Shown here: positions 17,902 to 28,540 of the stretch, in pieces
Numbering within the stretch: the first letter of the stretch is position 1
Layout of the letters: each line of letters starts with the position of its first letter
Source of the DNA: Sulfurihydrogenibium azorense Az-Fu1
GTDB taxonomy: Bacteria > Aquificota > Aquificia > Aquificales > Hydrogenothermaceae
Length of the DNA: 64,000 nt
Direction of reading: 5' to 3'
NCBI RefSeq assembly: GCF_000021545.1
Contig: NC_012438.1
Coordinates: forward strand, 62,001-126,000
Position numbers and translations under genes: made by a program
Notes under the pieces: model-generated
Told to the model about the DNA's origin: nothing
What the model saw: the letters and a program-made list of their open reading frames with translations, nothing else
The model's database searches: none

Positions 17902-17933
17902 TTAGAACAATAGAATTATCAAAATATAGCTAA
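17898..17933 (+). pseudogene. 5' fragment of a small gene apparently split by the TnpB element
   Basis: ATG at 17898 overlaps the hisA stop (ATGA), with AGGAG at 17891-17895, the arrangement of a real downstream operon gene. It encodes only MIRTIELSKYS before a TAA. That TAA lies in a GCTAAAA...TTTTAGC hairpin that could be the left end of the TnpB element. A matching 3' fragment may lie at 19472-19573. Confidence 0.45.
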
Positions 17934-19475
17934 AATTTTTTAGCAACTCTTGACAAAATGCAGTCAAATGATTACTTTAATCGTATGAAACCACAAGAAA
18001 AAATAAAAAGAGTTTTTACCATAAGAGTAGGCGGAAAAGAAAGAAAAAGAAAAGTAAGAACTCTACTTTTAGACCTTGCTCACTTTAGAAACATACTTAC
18101 AATCCTTATCACAAAATATTATACCCTTTATAAAGAACATTTACTAAACCAATCTATTCTCTATGGTCTTGTTGCAAAAAACTATACAGGTAAATACAAA
18201 GAAGAGTTTGAAAAGGTCTTAAAAAATATAGAAAATAATCCTGAATTAGCAGACCTACTTATAAAACTTAAAAATCAGAAAGAGAAAGTAGATAATCCTC
18301 ACTACATCCAATACATCATCCGTCAGACTATAAAAGACTTTAAAAACTTTTTCAAATCTCTTGAAAGCTTTAAAACCAATCCTGAAAAATTTAAAGAAAT
18401 ACCAAGACCACCTAAAGCTAAAAAACTTAAATACCTTATAAACTTTTCTGTAGAAGGAAATGTTAACACCTTTAAGCAAGAAGGAGATAAAATAATAATC
18501 AGGCTCAAAAACAATAAGTATCTTAAAGTTAAATTACCTAAAGATTTCCCTTATAAAATTTCTTCACTAAGAATAAAACTCTTTGGAGATGACCTTTATG
18601 TAGATGCTGTTTATGAGCAAGAAGTAGAATTAAAAAATCCTGTAGGAGAATATAAAGCAGGAATAGATATTGGACTTGATGAAATGATATCTGTTGTAAG
18701 TGAAAATGTAGAGTTAAAAAGTTTCATAGTATCAGGAAAAGAAATAAAAGCTTTCAATCAGTGGTTTAACAAAGAAATGTCAAAACTTAGAGCTGAAATA
18801 AACAACTTAAAAAACTCTGTCAAGAGAGGTTTTATTGAAAACCAAGTTGCTACTAAGAAGATTTATGAATTAGAATTAAAGATGAAATCTCTATCTTCCC
18901 ACAGGAAGAGATGGCTTGACAATAACTTTCACAAAATAGCAAGGAAACTGGTTGATTTACTCCATGAAACAGGACATAAAACCATCTACATAGGAAAAAA
19001 TGCAATTGAAAGTAAAAACGGTATAGACTTAGGAAAGAAAACTAATCAAGAGTTTGTATCTATTCCTTTTAGAAGGTTGATAAAGTTAATAGAATACAAA
19101 GCTTATGAGTATGGGATGGAAGTTATAGAGGTTGATGAGAGTTATACATCTAAAACATCACCGTTAGCTAATATATTTGAAGTAAAAGAGACAAAAAATA
19201 AAGAAGTATGTCAAGGAAAAAGGGATGGAGATATATTTAAAGATAAAGTTTTAAATAAAGTATTTCACGCAGACTTAGTAGGAGCAGTGAATATTATTAG
19301 AGTAGGAGCCAAGCTCCTGAGACTTAGGTTTTACGAAAATCTTAAAACTTTCTTTATAAAGCTTTGCAATCCTGTAAAGCTTAAGTTGATTGATTTGTTT
19401 TACAAAGTATCTCCTGAGTCCTTACGGATAGGGAGTAGTAGGTGGGGAGCATCATTCCCTGCAGGGTGGATGGAA
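17929..19475 (+). mobile_element. IS605-type element carrying only tnpB (boundaries approximate)
   Basis: The left boundary is placed at a hairpin, GCTAAAA at 17929-17935 pairing with TTTTAGC at 17938-17944. The right boundary is placed just after a G+C-rich structured stretch ending near 19470. No tnpA transposase is next to it, so it would need a TnpA in trans to move. It lies between hisA and the porin gene, and flanking fragments suggest that it entered a small coding sequence. Confidence 0.55.
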
Positions 19476-19508
19476 AAATCAGGTTATTTGAATACATTTG
19501 GAACTTAA
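17958..19508 (+). CDS. tnpB: TnpB-like RNA-guided nuclease, rearranged RuvC site, no zinc ribbon
   Basis: 516 residues. RuvC-I is AGIDIGLDEM with Asp237, and RuvC-III is HADLVGAVNI with Asp439. The usual RuvC-II Glu position reads YIGKN, with Gly where Glu is expected; a Glu is instead found at 394 in VDESYTSKTSP. The CxxC zinc ribbon between II and III is absent (only Cys418). This matches the TnpB branch with a relocated Glu. The last 65 or so residues after RuvC-III overlap a structured stretch and the final dozen probably derive from flanking DNA. No good RBS precedes the ATG; MKPQEK at 17985 is an alternative start. Confidence 0.82.
   Translation: MQSNDYFNRMKPQEKIKRVFTIRVGGKERKRKVRTLLLDLAHFRNILTILITKYYTLYKEHLLNQSILYGLVAKNYTGKYKEEFEKVLKNIENNPELADLLIKLKNQKEKVDNPHYIQYIIRQTIKDFKNFFKSLESFKTNPEKFKEIPRPPKAKKLKYLINFSVEGNVNTFKQEGDKIIIRLKNNKYLKVKLPKDFPYKISSLRIKLFGDDLYVDAVYEQEVELKNPVGEYKAGIDIGLDEMISVVSENVELKSFIVSGKEIKAFNQWFNKEMSKLRAEINNLKNSVKRGFIENQVATKKIYELELKMKSLSSHRKRWLDNNFHKIARKLVDLLHETGHKTIYIGKNAIESKNGIDLGKKTNQEFVSIPFRRLIKLIEYKAYEYGMEVIEVDESYTSKTSPLANIFEVKETKNKEVCQGKRDGDIFKDKVLNKVFHADLVGAVNIIRVGAKLLRLRFYENLKTFFIKLCNPVKLKLIDLFYKVSPESLRIGSSRWGASFPAGWMEKSGYLNTFGT
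19300..19472 (+). ncRNA. candidate omega RNA (reRNA) scaffold overlapping the tnpB 3' end
   Basis: TnpB guides usually derive from the 3' end of their own element. Here the DNA after RuvC-III contains AGGAGCCAAGCTCCT (a hairpin), a CTCC...GGAG stem around 19411-19435, and GGGGAGC...TTCCC with a CCCTGCAGGG palindrome near 19458. The G+C content is unusually high for this genome. The guide would be the sequence following about 19472. This is inference from element architecture; no covariance evidence is available here. Confidence 0.4.
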
Positions 19509-19573
19509 AATCTGGTTTTTCTATACCTAGCAAAGTAGATGAACCTTTAACTTTATACTTAGAAATAGAGTGA
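19472..19573 (+). pseudogene. 3' fragment of the gene apparently split by the TnpB element
   Basis: In a frame different from tnpB, the DNA after the presumed right end reads GKIRLFEYIWNLKSG then FSIPSKVDEPLTLYLEIE and a TGA. It looks like an authentic protein C-terminus, not a random frame. Joined to the fragment at 17898 it would give a protein of roughly 43 residues starting MIRTIELSK. I do not recognise the product. Confidence 0.45.
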
Positions 19574-19875
19574 ATTACGGTTTTGGATTAAAAAAATTGA
19601 AACTTGAAAAATTTTTTTGCAAATTTGCAAAAAAGCAAAAGATGAAGCTGTGTAAGTTTATAAACTTAAATGGTTGATTTTTTAATATTTTTTAATTTTC
19701 TGATTTTTGGCACGGATTTTGATAATATACTTTTTGAAAAAAGAATAAGTTAAAGTTTTTTTGGTAAAAACCGAATAGGAATTATGATTTTAATCATAGG
19801 TATTGACAAAACGGTTAAAATGTGTTAACTTTTTTGTTAAGAAAATTTAAAAAAATTTTTTTAAGGAGGTTTACT
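19574..19875 (+). promoter_or_regulatory. porin upstream region with a palindrome and a sigma-70-like promoter
   Basis: This 300-base stretch has no gene. At 19613-19634 there is an exact 22-base palindrome: T6, GC, AAATTT, GC, A6. TTGACA at 19803-19808 and TTAACT at 19825-19830 form a sigma-70-like promoter with 16-base spacing. At 19707-19722 TTGGCACG and TTGA resemble a sigma-54 site, but the -12 GC is GA. AAGGAGG precedes the ATG at 19876. Confidence 0.5.
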
Positions 19876-20967
19876 ATGAAGAAAGTATTAGGATTAGCAG
19901 CAGCGGGATTACTCGCTACAACTGCAGCAAACGCAGGACAAATCACAGTAGCAAACACAGACATCACACTCTTTGGTGGTGTATCTGCAGCTTACAACGC
20001 TCAAGACAATGATCACGTATTATCACTTGGAGGTTTTTCTAAAGACGGCTTCTCTGTTAACAACGTGATAGTTGGATTAACAAAACCGGCTCAAGATGGT
20101 GGAATAGGCTTTACAGCTGCATTTGGTTCTTGGGAAGCTCCAACTGTAGTTGCAAGTTCTGATGTTGTGAATGGAAGATTTATAGGTTTAAATTTAATAG
20201 GCCACGGCAAAACTACAGAATTCAAACCATGGCTTGCGTTTGTTACTTACAAACCGGTTGCAGGTTTATCAGTTGATGCAGGTTTACTTTGGGCTAACTT
20301 CGGTGAAAGACCAGTTACAATCCTAAACCCTCATATCACAAGAGGTGTATTATTTACAGCTAACCCAGTTGTAATGGCAGGTGCAAGAGCTTCTTACGAT
20401 GCAGGAATTGCTAAAGTTTACGTAGGTACTGGTAAAGTTGGGGCTCAATTAATGAAACCTTTCTATGAAAACTTCTTAATAGTTATACCTAAAACTTATA
20501 TAGAAGCAGGTATTACAGGAAACTTAAAACAAGTTGGATTACCTGTTGATGTAGGCTTACACACTTACAACGAAGCTGGTGGAAGAGATATCTATGCTTT
20601 AACTGCTGGTGGAGACCTTGGAATAGTATCTCTCGGATTAGAAGTTAACTACTTTAAAGCTGATAAAGTATTAAAAGCTGCTCAAGGAAATAGTGATTCT
20701 GCATGGGGTGCAGCTCTCTGTGCTAACGTAAAACCAATGGCAGGTATTCAAATACCTGTAAGGATAGAGTATGCTGACGCTAAGAAGTCTCAATTAATAC
20801 CTACAATAGCTGATACTATAAACGGTAACTCTGTATGGACATTTACAATAACTCCAACTTACAACCCAACTAAAAACACATTCATAAGAGCAGAAGTTTC
20901 TTATGTAAATTCCAGACATCACACTCTTTGGTGGTGTATCTGCAGCTTACAACGCTCAAGACAATGA
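19876..20967 (+). pseudogene. outer-membrane porin-like gene, 5' copy, frameshifted by tandem duplication
   Basis: The start is ATG at 19876 behind AAGGAGG. The signal peptide MKKVLGLAAAGLLATTAANA is followed by a Gly/aromatic-rich beta-barrel sequence. At the duplication junction (20912/20913) the frame shifts and the ORF ends with an unrelated 15-residue tail (RHHTLWW and on), losing the final strands and the terminal Phe needed for outer-membrane assembly. Removing one repeat restores a 373-residue protein ending ELGFLF. The repeat is 955 bases, not a multiple of three, so neither copy makes the full protein. Confidence 0.85.
19958..20912 (+). repeat. tandem duplication, first copy, 955 bp
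   Basis: This block begins CAGACATCACACTCTTTG and ends TTATGTAAATTC. It is followed directly by a second copy at an offset of exactly 955 bases. No base difference between the copies was found by reading, and the encoded residues are identical. There is no microhomology at the junction. Confidence 0.95.
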
Positions 20968-21867
20968 TCACGTATTATCACTTGGAGGTTTTTCTAAAGA
21001 CGGCTTCTCTGTTAACAACGTGATAGTTGGATTAACAAAACCGGCTCAAGATGGTGGAATAGGCTTTACAGCTGCATTTGGTTCTTGGGAAGCTCCAACT
21101 GTAGTTGCAAGTTCTGATGTTGTGAATGGAAGATTTATAGGTTTAAATTTAATAGGCCACGGCAAAACTACAGAATTCAAACCATGGCTTGCGTTTGTTA
21201 CTTACAAACCGGTTGCAGGTTTATCAGTTGATGCAGGTTTACTTTGGGCTAACTTCGGTGAAAGACCAGTTACAATCCTAAACCCTCATATCACAAGAGG
21301 TGTATTATTTACAGCTAACCCAGTTGTAATGGCAGGTGCAAGAGCTTCTTACGATGCAGGAATTGCTAAAGTTTACGTAGGTACTGGTAAAGTTGGGGCT
21401 CAATTAATGAAACCTTTCTATGAAAACTTCTTAATAGTTATACCTAAAACTTATATAGAAGCAGGTATTACAGGAAACTTAAAACAAGTTGGATTACCTG
21501 TTGATGTAGGCTTACACACTTACAACGAAGCTGGTGGAAGAGATATCTATGCTTTAACTGCTGGTGGAGACCTTGGAATAGTATCTCTCGGATTAGAAGT
21601 TAACTACTTTAAAGCTGATAAAGTATTAAAAGCTGCTCAAGGAAATAGTGATTCTGCATGGGGTGCAGCTCTCTGTGCTAACGTAAAACCAATGGCAGGT
21701 ATTCAAATACCTGTAAGGATAGAGTATGCTGACGCTAAGAAGTCTCAATTAATACCTACAATAGCTGATACTATAAACGGTAACTCTGTATGGACATTTA
21801 CAATAACTCCAACTTACAACCCAACTAAAAACACATTCATAAGAGCAGAAGTTTCTTATGTAAATTC
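20913..21867 (+). repeat. tandem duplication, second copy, 955 bp
   Basis: Second copy of the block at 19958-20912. The two align without gaps. After 21867 the sequence continues into the unique 3' end of the porin gene. Confidence 0.95.
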
Positions 21868-21952
21868 TGATAAAAATATTTTTGTAAATGATAAAGGAAA
21901 CCCTAAAGATAGCAGAACAACTGGAGCTGTTGAGTTAGGATTCTTATTCTAA
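20913..21952 (+). pseudogene. outer-membrane porin-like gene, 3' copy without start or signal peptide
   Basis: The second repeat restores the correct porin frame from about 20918 and ends TTGAVELGFLF at 21952, with the C-terminal Phe typical of outer-membrane barrels. It has no signal peptide and no RBS; the GTG at 21020 is only an in-frame codon within a strand. The frame used in the first copy does not reach it. It is the distal half of one original gene. Confidence 0.85.
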
Positions 21953-26497: not shown

Positions 26498-27243
26498 CTA
26501 ATCACCTCTAACAGTTTTTGTGGGTCTTTTACTTTAATTTTTGATGGGAGATTTGAGTTGTGATTGTTTTCAAGAAGTATAAACTCTACATTTTTTCCTT
26601 CTTCTTTGTTGTAGTTATAAACCATAAGGTAGTCTGCTAATGTATCTCCTATATAGTATGTAGGGTTTTTATACTCAAACTTTTTAAAAAATAGCTTCAT
26701 AGGGTAAGAAGATGGTTTTCTAAGGTGGGGCTGGGGTATATCATCTTCTGTAATTATCAGGTCAAAGTATTTGTATAAATCAAACAGTTTAAAAGTGTAG
26801 TCTAAATCTAAAAATGGTCTTCCTGTTATCACTCCCATAACATCAGATTTTTCTCTAACAGCTGCTAAAATTTCATGGGGAATTATGAGACTTTCTTTAT
26901 CTCTGTGTTGTCTGTACTTGTTTTCAAAGTACTCAACAAGCTCTTTGTAATCAGGAAGTTTTATATCATACTCTTTTGCAAATCTATAGAAATCTTCAAG
27001 TTTTGTACTGTATGGCTTAAAGATATTTTTAAATGTTTGTAAATCTTTATTGGATAAAGCGTATAAAATACCTGCCAAAGAAGCATCCCAGTCGTTATTA
27101 ATTCCAAAAGACAACTTTATATCAAGAAGGTCTTCTATGTTGTGGTCTTTTTTAGAAAAAAAATCAACTGTATCTTTTATAGAGTAATGGTAGGACTTGC
27201 TAACATCAATCAAAACACCATCAACATCAAAAATAACTATCAT
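26494..27243 (-). CDS. HAD superfamily phosphatase
   Basis: 249 residues of HAD subfamily IA. Motif I is IFDVDGVLIDVS, motif II TGRPFLDLD, and the motif III/IV region ends YYIGDTLADYLMVYNY. The long alpha-helical cap lies between residues 20 and 130. It resembles a HAD subfamily found near histidine and lipid A genes, but the substrate cannot be assigned. It overlaps cmk by 4 bases and the coiled-coil gene cluster by 1 base. Confidence 0.8.
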   Translation of the reverse strand: MIVIFDVDGVLIDVSKSYHYSIKDTVDFFSKKDHNIEDLLDIKLSFGINNDWDASLAGILYALSNKDLQTFKNIFKPYSTKLEDFYRFAKEYDIKLPDYKELVEYFENKYRQHRDKESLIIPHEILAAVREKSDVMGVITGRPFLDLDYTFKLFDLYKYFDLIITEDDIPQPHLRKPSSYPMKLFFKKFEYKNPTYYIGDTLADYLMVYNYNKEEGKNVEFILLENNHNSNLPSKIKVKDPQKLLEVIR

Positions 27244-27704
27244 TATCTAACAGCTCCAAATATTATTCTCATAAGTAGCTCAAGTGAGTTTTGGTTTAAT
27301 GCAACTATTAAAATACCTAAAACAATTATCCATATTTTTAATACTTTAATTTCTCCTTTTACCTCTTGCCTTAAAGCGTTGATTTCTCCTTTAACTTCTT
27401 GTCTTAAGGCTTCAATTTTACCTTCTAATTTTTGATTAACCGTTTCAATTTCTTGTCTAACAGTTTCAATCTCTTGTCTGACTATTTCAATCTCTTGTCT
27501 GGTTAGTAATATATCTTCTTTGGTAGCTAACTCTTTTCTAAGTTCGTCTCTGAGTTCGATTTTTCTCTTTTTGGTTTCTTCTACAACTTTATCTTCAAGT
27601 TGCTTCTGTGCTTCTTCAAAGACTTTAACTACTTCTAAAGCAGTTTCTTTACCTAACTTCTCTGCAAGTTTCTCATATAGCTCTACTGGTATAGCTAAAG
27701 GCAT
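27243..27704 (-). CDS. coiled-coil protein with C-terminal membrane anchor, paralog A
   Basis: 153 residues from MPLAIPVELYEKLAEKLG at 27704, chosen for GAGGT just before it; an ATG 9 codons upstream overlaps the previous gene. A globular helical head of about 65 residues is followed by a charged coiled coil and a C-terminal hydrophobic helix (WIIVLGILIVALNQ). It resembles the DUF1640/CCDC90-like group. The coil contains two copies of an 11-residue block (EIEALRQEVKG type). It is the last of three tandem paralogs and the most divergent. Confidence 0.75.
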   Translation of the reverse strand: MPLAIPVELYEKLAEKLGKETALEVVKVFEEAQKQLEDKVVEETKKRKIELRDELRKELATKEDILLTRQEIEIVRQEIETVRQEIETVNQKLEGKIEALRQEVKGEINALRQEVKGEIKVLKIWIIVLGILIVALNQNSLELLMRIIFGAVR

Positions 27705-28339
27705 GTAAGCACCTCTATTTAATGTTTCCAAATATTATTCTCATAAGTAGTTCGAGAGAGTTTTGGTTTAACGCAACCATCAAAATTCCTAAAATAATTA
27801 TCCACATCTTTAATACTTTTATTTCTCCTTTCACTTCCTGCCTTAAGGCCTCAATCTCACCTTTCAGCTCTTGCCTAACAGTTTCAATTTCTTGCCTGAC
27901 TGTCTCAATCTCTTGTCTGACTATTTCAATCTCTTGTCTGGTTAGTAATATATCTTCTTTGGTAGCTAACTCTTTTCTAAGTTCATCTCTGAGTTCGATT
28001 TTTCTCTTTTTGGTTTCTTCTACTACTTTATCTTCAAGTTGCTTCTGTGCTTCTTCAAAGACTTTAACTACCTCTAAAGCAGTTTCTTTACCTAACTTCT
28101 CTGCAAGTTTCTCATATAGCTCTACTGGTATAGCTAAAGGCATGTAAGCACCTCTATTTAATGTTTCCAAATATTATTCTCATAAGTAGTTCGAGAGAGT
28201 TTTGGTTTAACGCAACCATCAAAATTCCTAAAATAATTATCCACATCTTTAATACTTTTATTTCTCCTTTCACTTCCTGCCTTAAGGCCTCAATCTCACC
28301 TTTCAGCTCTTGCCTAACAGTTTCAATTTCTTGCCTGAC
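27468..28339. repeat. near-identical 439-bp-offset tandem repeat across the coiled-coil genes
   Basis: The segment 27468-27900 matches 27907-28339 at an offset of 439 bases with only a few substitutions. It covers the head of A plus the tail of B, and the head of B plus the tail of C. This indicates unequal crossing over or gene conversion between the paralogs. Confidence 0.85.
27715..28143 (-). CDS. coiled-coil protein with C-terminal membrane anchor, paralog B
   Basis: 142 residues from MPLAIP at 28143. The head is almost identical to paralog A and the tail is identical to paralog C. Compared with A it lacks one 11-residue coil block; compared with C it has 14 extra residues, two VRQEIET-type heptads. 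The C-terminal helix MWIIILGILMVALNQNSLELLMRI would insert in the membrane. The start overlaps the stop region of paralog C's frame, so translation is probably coupled. Confidence 0.75.
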   Translation of the reverse strand: MPLAIPVELYEKLAEKLGKETALEVVKVFEEAQKQLEDKVVEETKKRKIELRDELRKELATKEDILLTRQEIEIVRQEIETVRQEIETVRQELKGEIEALRQEVKGEIKVLKMWIIILGILMVALNQNSLELLMRIIFGNIK

Positions 28340-28540
28340 TAATAGAATATCTTCTTTAGTAGCAAGTTCTTTTCTAAGTTCGTCTCTGAGTTCGATTTTT
28401 CTCTTTTTGGTTTCTTCTACTACTTTGTCTTCAAGTTGCTTCTGTGCTTCTTCAAAGACTTTAACTACCTCTAAAGCAGTTTCTTTACCTAACTTCTCTG
28501 CAAGTTTCTCATATAGCTCTACCGGTATAGCTAAAGGCAT
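28154..28540 (-). CDS. coiled-coil protein with C-terminal membrane anchor, paralog C
   Basis: 128 residues, the shortest coil of the three and the first gene in the cluster. It starts at ATG 28540, with GGAGGAC a few bases upstream. The head, linker and anchor match the others; the coil has one VRQEIET heptad block and one hendecad. It faces the divergent cytochrome c peroxidase gene across 123 bases. Confidence 0.75.
   Translation of the reverse strand: MPLAIPVELYEKLAEKLGKETALEVVKVFEEAQKQLEDKVVEETKKRKIELRDELRKELATKEDILLVRQEIETVRQELKGEIEALRQEVKGEIKVLKMWIIILGILMVALNQNSLELLMRIIFGNIK

Follow-up and report, generated by a model that had tools for sequence, protein, structure and literature searches.

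An exact doubling within a porin gene of Sulfurihydrogenibium azorense Az-Fu1 is very probably an artefact of the published chromosome record

The second of two identical 955-bp units in a porin gene of Sulfurihydrogenibium azorense Az-Fu1 is, with a probability that we put at about 0.96, an artefact of the strain's published chromosome record. That second copy is very probably absent from the chromosome of the organism, which very probably carries one intact 373-codon gene for a BBP2-family porin, like its close relatives. This reading rests on the exactness of the copies, on the unrelatedness of the duplicated units, on a grid common to their starts and on the absence of the duplications in relatives; the public record itself contains the extra copies. 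Unless the record is named, positions refer to the window, i.e., the whole stretch of 64,000 bases that was analysed (bases 62001-126000 of one contig of 1,640,877 bases).

Exact comparison of the two blocks within the window (Table 1) showed them to be identical at 955/955 positions, which settles the comparison called for by the preliminary description, where they had been reported as recurring without visible change. The run of period 955 spans exactly 1910 bases, meaning that there are two copies with zero bases shared beyond them, and this doubling, from 19958 to 21867, is the sole repeat of such kind in the window. The remaining long direct repeats of the window, at 27244-28506, are diverged paralogous genes. 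At this latter locus (27243-28540), three tandem paralogues that are 71-92% alike in DNA encode small proteins of 128-162 aa, for which coiled-coil-like matches lie below the cut-off, and genes of this kind are present in at least two copies in the nearest relative, G006.

Several origins for the doubling were considered and rejected. The 955/955 identity rules out a repeat arising by chance, while the zero bases common at the joint of the porin unit dismiss a duplication seeded by short end homology. A mobile element was discarded as the cause, given that the porin unit sits within the porin CDS and that the other duplicated units (see below) differ in sequence. A TnpB/IS605-type element (OrfB_IS605 and TNB domains) is found between hisA and the porin gene (17924-19528); in G006, this site lacks the element and has about 170 bp of other sequence instead, whereas a 97% identical copy of the element lies near record base 1.073 Mb. 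Although specific to Az-Fu1 at this site, the element was also rejected as the source of the doubling, since it ends before the 955-bp unit begins.

The 955-bp unit is located wholly inside the porin gene, the frame of which it shifts. Because 955 = 3x318+1, the first copy enters a wrong frame and meets a stop at 20967; the first fragment begins with an MKK...ANA signal peptide and ends at this stop. The frame of the second copy opens no earlier than 20909, lacks an ATG at its beginning (the first listed start being GTG 21020) and reaches its C-terminus, ...ELGFLF followed by a stop, at 21952. The frame details given earlier, i.e., a wrong-frame tail on the first copy and the lack of a signal peptide on the second, were recovered from the ORFs, and the prediction made for a single copy also held: when one copy is omitted, the sequence reads as a 373-codon porin with Phe as its last residue. 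The scores of the two fragments against PF07642 (Table 1) exceed the curated cut-off of 26.2 and place both in the BBP2 family, while the MKKVLGLAAAGLLATTAANA start and the GFLF end, assessed by eye and both conserved in orthologues, are those of an outer-membrane barrel. The region upstream of the gene is conserved with G006, as would be expected of a gene in use. A search of the genome for another full copy of this porin yielded just a 35% paralogue at C1:1068513.

Table 1. Coordinates of the doubled unit, the porin fragments and the further duplications (window positions, or record positions where so marked).
Feature	Position	Strand	Content or basis
First copy, 955-bp unit	19958..20912	+	Record coordinate 81958 = 20 x 4000 + 1958; exact comparison and grid test
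Second, identical copy, 955-bp unit	20913..21867	+	Exact comparison; one copy only in syntenic G006
Joint between copies, ATGTAAATTC followed by CAGACATCACAC	20903..20924	+	Microhomology 0
Upstream region: TTGACA-like element and AAGGAGG ribosome-binding site	19800..19875	+	Conserved in G006
First porin fragment: signal peptide, most of BBP2 barrel, wrong-frame tail, 363 aa	19876..20967	+	ORF list/translation; Pfam PF07642, 87.2 bits
Second porin fragment: frame open but lacking a signal peptide, GFLF and stop at end	20909..21952	+	ORF list/translation; PF07642, 91.8 bits
Duplication 2, 955 bp	record 389958-391867 (L090:9958-11867)		3' part of NfeD gene and mutL start; microhomology 0
Duplication 3, 955 bp	record 397958-399867 (L090:17958-19867)		GGDEF-EAL gene; microhomology 1
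Duplication 4, 954 bp	record 1321958-1323865 (L062:1958-3865)		Oxidoreductase region; microhomology 0

Tandem duplications were searched for in separate stretches covering about 1,320 of the 1,641 kb (~80% of the record), and this sample contained three further exact two-copy tandem duplications (955, 955 and 954 bp) of unrelated sequence, the unit at 1321958 bearing no real resemblance to the porin unit. Mismatches between copies number 0 in 4/4 pairs, and the microhomology at the joints amounts to 0, 0, 1 and 0 bases. The duplication at 389958 leaves a truncated mutL fragment upstream of a complete mutL, the one at 397958 leaves a 263-aa fragment adjoining a 418-aa GGDEF-EAL gene, and the one at 1321958 doubles a 209-aa pyridine-nucleotide oxidoreductase gene along with the end of its convergent neighbour. 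In record coordinates, the first copies start at 81958, 389958, 397958 and 1321958, all of which equal 1958 modulo 4000, and the greatest common divisor of their differences is 4000; by comparison, in 2,000,000 random draws of four starts, a divisor of at least 1000 never occurred. Moreover, the spacing of exactly 1,240,000 between 81958 and 1321958 had been noted before 389958 and 397958 were found, so that the later pair constitutes an independent confirmation of the round spacing.

The sample also contains short-period repeats of ordinary kinds that are off this pattern, such as those with a 120-bp period at 330645 and a 67-bp period at 1083310. This also applies to a CRISPR-like array near 1494000 (L064:14089-14643; record about 1494089-1494643), in which a three-spacer run is present twice, as an exact repeat of 229 bp with its copies 327 bp apart. 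As a separate observation on the same genome, its alpha-carbonic anhydrase shows no difference over 228 aligned residues from PDB 4x5s, the S. azorense enzyme.

The artefact is favoured because the coordinates of a finished record have no bearing on where a biological process acts. The grid of first-copy starts holds in the final coordinates, earlier insertions included, and the duplicated length is nearly constant, which together fit a block-wise writing step. In such a scenario, 954-955 bases would have been written twice at no fewer than four places of the finished record, each starting at 1958 modulo 4000, at a stage when the sequence was assembled, finished or handled as a file in 4,000-base blocks; the presumed fault would be that about 955 bases of a block were written, after which the block was rewritten from its start. 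A block-wise fault whose grid survives in finished coordinates would be unusual, and one unit measures 954 bp, as opposed to 955 bp, both of which count against an artefact. For this last difference, a byte-block origin with a fixed FASTA line length was tried and abandoned, as the phases of 60-, 80- and 100-column lines, worked by hand, fail to separate the third and fourth cases. The preliminary description had listed an assembly error as the third of its possible causes, and this is the one that gains from the three additional duplications of 954-955 bp with starts at one residue modulo 4000. In contrast, its headline, a duplication breaking the porin in the organism with possible reversible switching, finds no support in view of the same-length duplications on the grid elsewhere in the record.

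Wherever a close relative carries the porin complete, it is a single gene whose frame runs unbroken from the signal peptide to the terminal Phe. The neighbourhood in G006, whose porin is 88% identical, is collinear except for the TnpB insertion; its porin is single, and so are its counterparts of the other duplicated units. A search of 24 related genomes that tolerated up to 3 mismatches did not recover the joint sequence of the porin unit, and the porin neighbourhoods fetched from other relatives contain no such duplication either. Samples of 400 kb from each of G004 and G008 were likewise devoid of exact tandem duplications of this kind, each of these controls being weak when taken alone, since about 1.7 events would be expected per 400 kb at the Az-Fu1 rate.

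Exact copies, both otherwise undamaged, facing a single copy in relatives are also what one would expect of a very young event, that is, a real tandem duplication that occurred very recently in the sequenced culture, inactivated the porin and would revert through RecA-dependent recombination or slippage. Such an event leaves unaccounted for the three other duplications of the same length, which affect unrelated sequence and lie on one 4,000-base grid, and the ends of the unit share no homology; we regard it as very unlikely. An even less probable variant would make the doubling a reversible phase-variation switch, in which two copies turn the porin off and precise loss of one turns it on, a mode known from pneumococcal capsule genes. 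Its anatomy would be workable, the frame being lost with two copies and regained with one, and switches of this type are known (Waite et al. 2001 and 2003, cited in PMC4022640). However, the duplication is not particular to the gene that would be switched, as three unrelated places share the grid; the same length and grid in the NfeD/mutL, GGDEF-EAL and oxidoreductase genes point to a single non-biological cause, and the two-copy form was seen in no relative.

An error in the record could also have occurred locally at each place without any block-wise step, for instance if overlapping contig ends, one Sanger read long, had been joined untrimmed. Tandem insertions count among the recognised types of mis-assembly (PMC2397507), a length of about 955 bp is near that of a long Sanger read, and the absence of microhomology fits end-to-end joining, but independent errors would share neither a 4,000-base grid in finished coordinates nor nearly one length, and we accord this explanation hardly any weight. 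Finally, it is scarcely credible that a real bacterial process produces exact tandem duplications of ~955 bp without end homology, with the 4,000-base spacing being a coincidence.

As an artefact of the record, the pattern means that a complete reference genome very probably includes at least four false insertions of ~955 bp, by which a conserved porin, mutL, a GGDEF-EAL regulator and an oxidoreductase gene are split or part-copied and false fragments are added. Anyone who uses this record to count genes, call pseudogenes, survey duplications or study porins would be led astray. Looking for the grid signature is a simple check that could be extended to further finished genomes from that project and period, and the porin doubling calls for a note correcting the record rather than for study as a switch.

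Compared with the BBP2 porins (PF07642) of other Hydrogenothermaceae, the Az-Fu1 gene shares their signal peptide, their conserved core and the GFLF terminus, with 50-88% identity to its orthologues, which are single and intact; the doubled block in the record is the only difference. Regarding the pneumococcal capsule genes cap3A, cap8E and tts, which are switched by internal tandem duplications (Waite et al. 2001, 2003; as cited in PMC4022640), the resemblance is that a tandem duplication within a gene disrupts the frame, which loss of the duplication would restore; unlike these genes, Az-Fu1 has its doublings in four unrelated places on a grid, and its relatives have one copy only. Tandem-insertion (or expansion) mis-assemblies are recognised in bacterial genomes, finished ones included, and mostly correspond to miscounted repeats (Phillippy, Schatz and Pop 2008, PMC2397507). 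The Az-Fu1 record differs from these in that unique sequence is doubled, at a near-constant length and on a 4,000-base grid, which is unusual. As in such mis-assemblies, it contains an extra exact head-to-tail copy, undiverged and missing from relatives, and the pattern follows the coordinates of the record, not the sequence, with four unrelated units at 1958 modulo 4000.
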